From: Candidatus Gastranaerophilales bacterium
Lineage (GTDB): Bacteria > Cyanobacteriota > Vampirovibrionia > Gastranaerophilales > Gastranaerophilaceae
Assembly: GCA_944323045.1 (NCBI GenBank)
Contig: CALUQX010000003.1
Location: forward strand, 1 to 64,000
Reading direction: 5' to 3'
Length of the DNA stretch: 64,000 nucleotides
Shown here piece after piece: positions 9,083 through 62,665 of the stretch. The stretch's first letter is position 1. Every line of letters starts with the position of its first letter. The notes under the pieces were generated by a model. That model had not been told where the DNA came from, ran no database searches, and worked only from the letters and a program-made list of their open reading frames with translations. Both the position numbers and the translations under genes were made by a program.

Positions 9083-9412
9083 GGTGAGTAAAGTGAGTGC
9101 AGTGAGTAATGTATTTACAATTAATCAGGCAATGTGGATATTCCATGTTGCCTGATTTACCTCTCCGAGGGGGAGGTCACAACACTTAACGAACGTAAGT
9201 GAGTTTAGTGTTGTGGGTGGGGGTTGGTCATAGGCGTATTTAGATTAGCTGTGGCTGTTATGAAACTTCGTAGGCTACGCCTACCCCCCTCCTCGAAATC
9301 AGAGATTTCGGTCCTCCCTCCAGGGGAGGACATGAAAACCGCAGGCAATGTGGATATTCTACATTGCCTGATGTTTTCATGTCATCGCGCATTTGTGGAT
9401 TGCGAGCAGAGC

Positions 9413-9516
9413 GGATTTGCGTACGGACGGAGCAAAGCGAGTCCGGGTAGCGAACAGATTGAGCCGACTAAGCCGCAAGGCTTTTAGGCGAAACTCTGTG
9501 AGCGTGGAGCAAATCC
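9413..9516 (+). repeat. Structured repeat element, copy B
   Basis: Closed by GGATTTGC (9413-9420) and GCAAATCC (9509-9516). Inside are CGGAC/GTCCG, the conserved text TAGCGAACAGATTGAGC, a hairpin AAGCC-GCAA-GGCTT (9470-9483) with a GNRA-type loop, and CTCTGTGAGCGTGGAG. Copies at 1-47 (partial), 37228-37409 and 61623-61732 (reverse) keep the framework but use different hairpin stems, each still paired. This points to a structured RNA or a hairpin-dependent DNA element of unknown function. Confidence 0.65.
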
Positions 9517-9685
9517 AAGACACGTCTTATCGTCCTAACGTCTTTTTCAAAACAACTGTTCACAGGTTACAGAGCCCAAAGTATAAAAGCGGACTTGTCC
9601 GCCCAGCAAGGCGTAGATTTTCATCTGCTGCGTCAGTCGTGATGACAGATTTATTTTCGCATGTCATTATTCAGAATTATGCAGA

Positions 9686-37160: not shown

Positions 37161-37227
37161 TACTAGAGGTACCACAGCATTTTGAAGAACGGTGAACGGT
37201 TGTTACAAAAGTGATTAAGTGACTAGC

Positions 37228-37409
37228 GAATTTGCGCACGGACGGAGCGCGAGCCGGCAGAGGGCGAAACGGCGACGCGTAGGCGGCGGCGTTGCAGACC
37301 CGTTTAACGCCGGCGAGTAAGACAGTGAAACGAGTCCGGATAGCGAACGGATTGAGCCGGCTTGTGCGTAAGCACAATAGGCGAAACTCCGTGAGCGTGG
37401 AGCAAATTC
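37228..37409 (+). repeat. Structured repeat element, copy C, with internal insertion
   Basis: Closed by GAATTTGC and GCAAATTC, a compensatory change from GGATTTGC/GCAAATCC in copies B and D. The hairpin TTGTGC-GTAA-GCACAA (37362-37377) replaces AAGCC-GCAA-GGCTT of copy B. Between CGGAC and GTCCG this copy carries about 80 extra bases that include a reverse-complement stretch related to the DNA leading into hairpin element E. GTGATTAA octamers flank it on both sides. Confidence 0.65.
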
Positions 37410-37803
37410 AAGACAGGTGATTAAGTGATTAAGCGGGTTACATGAATCAGCCAACGCCACCATGTCATCGCGCAGCGGCATAGTCGCAATTCTAGCAAGT
37501 CGTAGATAATGCGCAATCTCTACCAATAACGTCATCCCGCAGCGGCATTGACGCGGCACGCTAGATTCGACGCCTTGCGGGATCTCTTATGGAAGTTACT
37601 AAGTTACTGAGGCACTAAGGAGTTACAAAATATCAGTCAATGTTAAAGATATGTCACCCTGAACTTGTTTCAGGGTCTAGTCCGCGCGGCAAAGTTCGAC
37701 AAATTGAATAACAAGACACCGACAAGTGCAACATGGGCTAGATGCTGAAACAGTCTTGGTTGCTCGCGTGTGTCTTACTCGTTCGCGTTTAGCAGGTCTT
37801 CGG

Positions 37804-37839
37804 TTGACGTCGGCAATGGCATAGCCATTTTGCCGTCAA
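37804..37839 (+). repeat. Hairpin element E, copy 1
   Basis: TTGACG/CGTCAA and ATGGC/GCCAT form two stacked stems around ATA, preceded by GGTCTTCGG and followed by CAAGCCTCCGCC. At 61443-61478 the same flanks enclose TTGCCTGC/GCAGGCAA and ATGTC/GACAT: the stems differ but still pair. Confidence 0.55.
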
Positions 37840-38102
37840 GCCTCCGCCTTCCGCTCTCTCGCGCAACGGCGTTCCGGACTTTCTTTTCAGCGGCTTTGCC
37901 GCCTCCAAAGAAAGCTCCTACAGCCTCAGCTCGCAATCCGCAGTTCAGCATGACAAAAAATAAATAAGGCAACGCTTGAATCTTGCTTTGCCATTCAAAA
38001 GGCACTAAGGCACTAGGGGGCTAGGGCACTAAGTAGTTACGACAACAGACAACGTGGAATTTTCCACATTGCTTGTTGTTAAGGGAACAAGTTCTTTACA
38101 AA

Positions 38103-61336: not shown

Positions 61337-61442
61337 CCCAAACACTTTTACATGAAAACGGACTGGTATAAACCAGTCCGCTTTCATGTAAAAACTCCCC
61401 AGGTTGGACTGTCTTGCTTGGCGGCATTAAACGGGTCTTCGG

Positions 61443-61478
61443 TTGCCTGCCGCAATGTCTATGACATTTTGCAGGCAA
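61443..61478 (+). repeat. Hairpin element E, copy 2
   Basis: TTGCCTGC/GCAGGCAA and ATGTC/GACAT around TAT, with the same flanks GGTCTTCGG and CAAGCCTCCGCC as copy 1 at 37804. Both stems differ in sequence from copy 1 but remain paired. Confidence 0.55.
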
Positions 61479-61555
61479 GCCTCCGCCCTCTGCCGCCTCG
61501 CGCTCGAACCTGACAAGGCTCTGCCTTGTGGTTCTCGTCCAACTTTTGAAACTTC

Positions 61556-61598: not shown

Positions 61599-61622
61599 AT
61601 AAAAAACTCCCCAGGTTGTCTT

Positions 61623-61732
61623 GGATTTGCTCCACGCTCGAATAGTTTCGCAATTGAACCTTCGGTTCAAGCTTGCTCAATATTCTCGCTATCCGGACTT
61701 GCAGCTGGGCTGCGTCGTCCGTCCGCAAATCC
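61623..61732 (-). repeat. Structured repeat element, copy D
   Basis: Reverse orientation. Closing stem GGATTTGC/GCAAATCC; hairpin TTGAACC/GGTTCAA (61654-61670); inner GCAGC/GCTGC hairpin inside CGGAC/GTCCG; conserved GTCCGGATAGCGA. Stems differ in sequence from those of copies B and C yet pair. Confidence 0.65.
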
Positions 61733-62185
61733 GCTGGACTCTTCACCAAGAGCCCTTCGGGCTGGTTGGTTCTCAAACACTAAACTTAACAAGCAAAACA
61801 AAAACCGGCAAAAGCCGGCTTTCGTTTTGCAATAAAAAACTCCCCAGACTGACCAACAATCGAACCATTTTGGAGCTTTTCTTCAACAGTATTACTGTAA
61901 CACAAATAGACTTATTTAACAAGATTGAAGGGTTTAACTATGATTACATAAATGGCAGGTATGTTTCATAGTTGATTTAATTATTTATTTTTGTCATTTT
62001 ACTTTCCTCTTACCAAAACTTACCAACATTTTACTATTGGTAAATCCTCATAATAGCCTCCTTTTAAGAGTTTGATGAAATATGGAAAACACTTTAAAGA
62101 CGAAATATAGCGTCGTCGTTTAAAGTGTATTTGTGAGGAACACAAACTCACGAATTGGTAAAAAAAATAAAAAAAGGAAGGAACT

Positions 62186-62665
62186 ATGACCAAAAAAACA
62201 CAAGTTGTTACGTATATGAGAGTAACAAATCAGAAACAAGTAAGAGAAGATTATTCTCTTGAACAACAACAAAAAATTCTTAGAGATTATGCTAATAAGA
62301 ATAATCTTAAAATTGTAGCAGAATTTACTGATAGTGAGTCAGCGATGGGTTTGAGTAGAAAGGAAATTAAAGAAAGGGGCACTTTTCTTAATTCTTCTAA
62401 AAATTGCTCAACAATTTTAGTGAATAAAATTGCCAGACTAATAAGAAGAATTAAAGACCTTGCGTTAGTTGATGAAGGTATTACAATTCGTTCGTCAAGG
62501 GGAGATTTAGCCGAAAATCTAAGTATGGATTATTGGCATATATTATTCTCCAATAATTGCGTGCAAAAAGAGAAAAGAATACCAGAACCCCAAATCAAGA
62601 AGCAAAGACAACTATTTAGAAAATTAGAAAAAGAAATTAGAAAAGAGGTAAATAATGTTAAATAA
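62186..62665 (+). CDS. Serine-recombinase-like protein, probably inactive
   Basis: 159 aa. The N-terminus VVTYMRVTNQKQVREDYSLEQQ matches the catalytic start of resolvase/invertase proteins (YxRVSxxxQ), but the catalytic Ser is Thr (RVTN). After NNLKIVAEFTDSES the family likeness fades and the protein ends without the usual DNA-binding domains. A GGAAGGA site precedes the ATG. Likely a regulatory or degenerate resolvase of a mobile element; the next genes overlap it. Confidence 0.6.
   Translation: MTKKTQVVTYMRVTNQKQVREDYSLEQQQKILRDYANKNNLKIVAEFTDSESAMGLSRKEIKERGTFLNSSKNCSTILVNKIARLIRRIKDLALVDEGITIRSSRGDLAENLSMDYWHILFSNNCVQKEKRIPEPQIKKQRQLFRKLEKEIRKEVNNVK

Follow-up and report, generated by a model that had tools for sequence, protein, structure and literature searches.

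Folded repeats with common blunt ends, probably mobile, at tRNA T-loops and other foldable sites in the Gastranaerophilaceae

Introduction

The palindromic elements of Rickettsia and Wolbachia (RPE/WPE) are folded repeats of ~100–150 bp that occur in many copies in and around genes, including RNA genes, and for which we know of no transposase. Integron attC sites present a folded strand with two paired boxes and a spacer, in concatenated units that carry gene cassettes. REP/REPIN sequences, as described in two papers (PMC3733652, PMC3116915), are palindromes of 20–40 bp that bear a GTAG/CGTC tag and have a dedicated RAYT. By analogy, the nearest published parallel to the repeats described here is accretion in the T-loop of ssrA in Dehalococcoides, where islands insert in the middle of the T-loop, leave direct repeats of the RNA-gene 3' end, accumulate in tandem and carry a conserved motif just before each repeat (PMC3146451).

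Here we describe two folded elements, type A (~112 nt) and type B (78–98 nt), from a gut Gastranaerophilales genome (Melainabacteria, non-photosynthetic Cyanobacteriota; 2.0 Mb in 44 contigs). The starting point was the first 64,000 nt of contig CALUQX010000003.1 (assembly GCA_944323045.1), called the window below. Compared by description rather than by sequence, A and B resemble RPE/WPE as folded many-copy repeats of ~100–150 bp, but their junctions at T-loops are blunt, the tRNA 3' ends there are duplicated and the units can be tandem, and A and B show no evident general insertion into protein genes. With attC they have in common this folded-strand layout of paired boxes and spacer, and concatenated units; they differ in having no gene cassettes and no GTTRRRY core at their ends, and integron attC was rejected because the GTTRRRY/RYYYAAC core was absent from the element ends when these and 170 flank pairs were read. 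They are likely to belong with the non-autonomous palindromic mobile repeats, and the likeness to REP/REPIN sequences lies in a short non-autonomous palindromic repeat with a single-strand fold; membership was rejected, since type A ends in GCG...AAGAC and measures ~112 nt instead of showing a GTAG/CGTC tag and 20–40 bp. T-loop insertion, 3'-end repeats, tandem accretion and a motif before the repeat are all features of the ssrA islands as well, but those are kilobase islands with an integrase, whereas A/B units span ~180–300 bp and combine a covarying fold with the absence of any gene (PMC3146451). Direct repeats of the 3' end with a T-loop junction were found, and an integrase inside the unit was not.

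Results and discussion

Type-A copies and their fold

The initial annotation had described a structured repeat family in four copies (1–47, 9413–9516, 37228–37409 and 61623–61732) with compensatory base changes, and all four are real. A covariance model refined the limits to 1–53 (partial, plus strand), 9411–9522 (plus), 37226–37415 (plus) and 61617–61734 (minus), giving three full copies and one partial. The partial copy, which covers model positions 59–112, is cut by the contig start. The complete copy at 9411–9522, GCGGATTTGCG...CAAATCCAAGACA, forms a three-way junction closed by P1 at 9413–9420/9509–9516. The copy at 37226–37415 is longer than the others only because a type-B element of 78 nt (37247–37324, plus; GCGCGAGCC...GTAAGACA) is nested bluntly in its P2 loop, which it splits exactly at GGACGGA/GTGAAAC (a slash marks the insertion point here and below); without this insert the copy reads CGGACGGA/GTGAAACGAGTCCG and matches the uninterrupted copy L001. 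The minus-strand copy lies between AGAGTCCA and ACCTGGGGAG; its unit has an upstream hairpin segment at 61735–61773 (minus; GAGAACCAACCAGCCCGAAGGGCTCTTGGTGAAGAGTCCA), read from the sequence, and downstream of the element CCTGGGGAGTTTTTTATTG, at ~61830–61852, resembles a second copy of the 3' end.

All type-A sequences fit a single three-way junction composed of P1 (GRATTTGC/GCAAATYC), a P2 hairpin (CGGAY/RTCCG) with a variable loop able to accommodate inserts, and a long P3 that contains two tandem G-A steps and closes with a hairpin that is hypervariable yet paired. The four internal hairpins noted at the outset (GGAGC/GCTCC, AAGCC/GGCTT, TTGTGC/GCACAA and TTGAACC/GGTTCAA) are borne out, two of them with GNRA loops (GCAA and GTAA). 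Among 17 aligned copies, 95.7% of cells are paired, against 17–41% in slid controls, and 82 cells are double-changed against 28.0 (sd 4.6) in shuffled alignments, a count reached by 0 of 500 shuffles; for 63 distinct rows the count of double-changed cells is 294, compared with 80.9 after shuffling, and slid controls are 16–43% paired. These figures should not be read as probabilities, since the model partly shaped the alignments and the sequences are related to one another, but in view of the slid controls the fold can hardly be doubted. Over 196 sequences, 129 G-U pairs stand against 32 A-C in 6219 cells (~4:1), an excess which indicates that the fold of one strand, this one, is selected. Together with the covariation, these counts support well the earlier claim of selection for structure. 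G-U nevertheless accounts for 2% of type-A paired cells compared with 11% (42 of 370 cells, and no A-C) in the T-stems of tRNAs at these loci, a rough comparison in which the T-stem G-U pairs may be conserved ones. Since G-U is kept over A-C and yet is rare, unlike in the T-stems, the folded molecule could be either RNA or single-stranded DNA.

That no RNA family of this form was known also holds for Rfam: at the gathering cut-off a scan of the window returned only SRP RNA and tRNA, and a permissive scan of six loci placed no family on the element. Our search of open-access text found no description of it.

Type-B elements

Type B was recognised by reading the insert nested in the 37 kb type-A copy. 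Its fold is different, while its termini and insertion sites are those of type A. This fold shows 333 double-changed cells against 114.6 in shuffled alignments, and 101 G-U against 8 A-C pairs, of which 68 G-U belong to one near-constant pair and the remainder stand at ~33 to 8. In the window, a type-B copy at 37771–37864 (minus) directly adjoins a partial one at 37865–37927 (minus, 36 bits). Another, at 61410–61503 (minus), belongs to an array of elements at 60.4–61.8 kb and sits within the foldback GTTGGAC-GA-GAACC...GGTTC-GA/B/GTCCAAC; the hairpin segment upstream of it (61504–61547, minus) was read from the sequence.

Distribution

The covariance model, applied to the genome and its relatives, gave 58 type-A matches in this genome, where a 17-mer pattern allowing up to two mismatches also matched 41 times, against 0 for the reversed pattern. 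Type A is present in 32 of the 60 family genomes and 24 of the 41 genera, with 1–39 matches in each of the other positive genomes. Its occurrence is patchy even between sisters, G017 having none and G053 having 37. Type B is spread more widely (50 of 60 genomes, 38 of 41 genera), with 41 matches in this genome. In a phylum sample screened with strict filters, 66 of 194 genomes carried type A, all of them Gastranaerophilaceae, and none was found outside the family. Among the matches listed, most named genomes with the element are labelled Gastranaerophilales; the few titled Bacilli or Alphaproteobacteria may be misbinned contigs. The genomes are fragmented MAGs, and many copies lie near contig ends. 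Phage and plasmid collections gave no match to the element, and IMG/VR gave one contig, in which the single copy is centred in a perfect palindrome, TGCGGGTTT/AACCCGCA.

Ends and insertion sites

The ends of the unit are blunt, GCG...AAGAC followed by 0–1 nt, with no target duplication. Flank comparison found an uninterrupted counterpart for 72 of 173 sites (e.g. L024 versus L362 at 96.7%, and L291 versus L238 at 95.6% over 91 nt), under a permissive criterion (up to three gaps, 75% identity) that let in some homologous repeats which do not represent the same locus. The insertion point follows an A in 136 of 190 cases, and many copies lie in or beside hairpin loops. Targets comprise tRNA T-loops and, sorted by eye, palindromic repeats, short tandem repeats of this genus and other elements. 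Palindromic targets include TGTCATCCTGAACTT/GTTTCAGGATC, CCCTTGAGGGAGA/GGGTTAGGG and ATTGCGA/GCGAATGCGAAGCAAT; on inspection, orientation looks constant within each target repeat family. The insertions into short tandem repeats of this genus show no obvious hairpin, simple inverted flanks account for few sites only, and a general test of hairpin enclosure gave a modest excess, its weakness being due to control points that lay within the same hairpins. Copies with common flanks could have spread as larger duplications, and neither a circular intermediate nor a fresh insertion was observed.

The tRNA T-loop is the clearest of these targets: once the element is excised, 50 of the 196 distinct copies leave a sequence that agrees with the T-arm and acceptor of a predicted tRNA at 18 or more of 22 positions, the best control reaching 14 of 22. 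An intact tRNA often lies ~80 nt upstream of the element, and a second, partial tRNA 3' end often adjoins it; the arrangement of an intact tRNA upstream and a partial copy downstream was seen for Asp, Leu, Gly, Tyr, Arg and Lys. In order, one finds the tRNA, a terminator, the hairpin segment, the T-stem copy, the element, the tRNA 3'-end copy and another terminator. Such units, typically ~180–300 bp and gene-free, stand in tandem behind several tRNA genes, and a single T-loop can contain A and B in succession (X'-A-B-Y').

In many units the hairpin segment has the form rcY-GA-rcX, in which all but the central GA is complementary to the two sides of the target, a pattern that the window's type-B unit at 61.4–61.55 kb shows well: its segment runs rcY-GA-rcX-loop-X', and rcY (GTTGGAC) pairs with GTCCAAC beyond the far side of the element. 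A guide test with rigid, fixed geometry was not convincing (mean 5.56 versus 5.14). In a looser form, the second one tried, the segment before GAGAA (rcY) covaries with bases beyond the element, at a level reached by 32 of 10 000 shuffles; since the rigid test failed, the idea of a guide is tentative.

Across the family the region behind tRNA-Asp (L090–L119) is an insertion hotspot. At L107 (tRNA-Asp) and L094 another type of element, GGAACAGTCGGCTCGAA...GAGCTGAA, neither A nor B, stands before the second tRNA 3' end or in its place.

A proposed mode of insertion

The reading that we favour, at a probability of about 0.62, is that A and B are non-autonomous, MITE-like palindromic mobile elements which insert bluntly next to a purine in or beside foldable loops. 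Each forms a compact folded domain whose ends, GCG...AAGAC, are fixed and as a rule followed by one further purine, and would insert as an exact blunt unit, without target-site duplication, next to a purine that is mostly A. At a tRNA 3' end the element enters the T-loop behind position 57 or 58; its other targets are palindromic repeats, entered at the loop, and other elements, entered at the edge or in the P2 loop. At a tRNA, the inserted unit would consist of tRNA 3' end, terminator, target-complementary hairpin segment, copy of the T-stem 5' strand and one or more elements; because it would bring a tRNA 3' end with it, the tRNA would stay intact and units could stack in tandem. We infer that a recombinase supplied in trans acts on DNA, with one folded strand as its substrate. 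If this is true, it adds a class of small mobile elements whose hallmark is structure and not a gene or inverted ends, shows tRNA gene ends gaining stacked modules while the tRNA is kept, and offers a tractable system in which to look for the recombinase that recognises folded DNA or RNA. More doubtfully, the elements might form a lineage-specific class of transposons with common termini and a modular fold that recognises single-stranded hairpins and T-loops and rebuilds the end of the target gene at each insertion, moved by a recombinase or guided by RNA through the target-complementary upstream segment.

Candidate enzymes and alternative explanations

Surveys of reverse transcriptases, IS110, Y1 and tyrosine recombinases brought up no convincing partner for the elements. 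Tyrosine recombinases of XerC/D size occur in every genome in a Phage_integrase family search, and one of 188 aa, found in 40 of 60 genomes, is weakly associated with type A (25 of 32 genomes with it, 15 of 28 without). In two genomes (L373, L374), a type-A copy lying in a tRNA-like T-loop marks the end of an island that contains a small tyrosine recombinase; judged from sequence, these islands carry restriction-modification-like or BREX-like genes together with HipBA-like genes. Serine-recombinase islands use the same tRNA-Asp hotspot. These islands raise the alternative that the tRNA units are attR leftovers of islands whose tyrosine or serine integrases used the T-loop, the folded elements being passengers or part of the attachment site. 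The duplicate tRNA 3' ends, the T-loop crossover and an accretion like that of the ssrA islands (PMC3146451) would all follow, and both the two HipBA-like islands and the large serine recombinase-like genes at tRNA-Asp fit it. We nevertheless think it improbable: wherever a second 3'-end copy was inspected at tRNA-Asp, a folded element almost always came before it, the serine-recombinase islands appear to be joined at the acceptor end and not at the T-loop, and many copies lie away from tRNA genes altogether.

The reading frame of the serine recombinase-like genes at tRNA-Asp enters the tRNA (...NGGTDEARTRD). Near the array at 60.4–61.8 kb, a 159-aa ORF with a Resolvase N-terminal domain (62186–62665, plus) probably represents the beginning of a large serine recombinase that has been broken.

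Somewhat less likely again is a functional structured RNA, regulatory or small non-coding, which is dispersed beside genes and whose fold acts as RNA. This was in part the view of the initial annotation, and its claim of selection for the fold stands: covariation is strong, GNRA loops and tandem G-A motifs are present, G-U is preferred over A-C on one strand and, on inspection, the units at tRNA genes lie between terminators. The RNA nature does not follow, since the patchy occurrence (32 of 60 genomes) and the blunt insertions with empty counterparts suggest a mobile element. Nesting of the elements in one another, the lack of a conserved prepilin neighbour across genomes and, by the rough comparison given above, the scarcity of G-U relative to T-stems point the same way. 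As judged from the sequences, type A seems to fit the description of a mobile repeat better than that of an RNA gene, and compensatory base changes in a repeat need not imply a regulatory RNA.

It is very improbable that the elements are REP/REPIN-like and moved on single-stranded DNA by a RAYT (Y1 HUH transposase). The folded strand and the lack of target duplication would suit such an enzyme, Y1 genes occur in 23 of the 60 family genomes, this one included, and three of them lie within a few kb of type-A copies. However, the neighbours of the RAYT/Y1 genes at 20 loci, and likewise in this genome, are other short palindromes, many of the GTAGG type, and not A or B; a RAYT flanked by the same repeats was thus not found, and REP/REPIN-RAYT was rejected. 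Moreover, the copy-rich genomes G053, G014, G046 and G027 have no Y1 match, and type-A ends lack a GTAG tag. At L308–L327, GTTGGGCATACTTGCCCAAC is an example of the short palindromes that flank RAYT-like Y1 genes, and GTAGG is frequent in them.

Insertion at the RNA level, by intron-like reverse splicing or retrotransposition, would account for the exact siting in loops, the RNA-like fold and the strand-consistent orientation, but is the least probable reading, because neither this genome nor G027, with its 26 copies, gave a reverse transcriptase match when searched, we know of no self-splicing intron class as short as these elements of 78–125 nt, and L112, L213 and L284 lie antisense at a different position of the tRNA-Asp end. 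A group II intron or retroelement was rejected on the same absence of a reverse transcriptase from this genome, and an IS110 bridge-RNA element because the IS110 recombinase (Transposase_20), found in 4 of 60 family genomes, is absent from this one.

Prepilin genes and local repeats

Three of the copies had been placed beside variable prepilin genes, correctly: two of the neighbours match the N_methyl family and the third is a close homologue. With homologues located by tblastn, a prepilin gene lies within ~1.5 kb of 20 of 37 distinct copies in this genome and of 11 of 90 in other genomes. The link therefore holds here and is weak elsewhere, so that it reflects local composite repeats and not a general role of the element; this fits duplication, in this genus, of what look like blocks of prepilin gene, repeats and element.

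A palindromic repeat at ~9289–9333 of the window (L004) gives a weak, sub-threshold match to whalefall-1 RNA (24.5 bits against a cut-off of 37). Short tandem repeats of 8–9 nt are plentiful around the type-A copies of this genus, and in the window they occur at 220–270, 37593–37640 and 37998–38033 (AAGTTACTAAGGCACTA, AGTGATTA and ACGTCTTA types).
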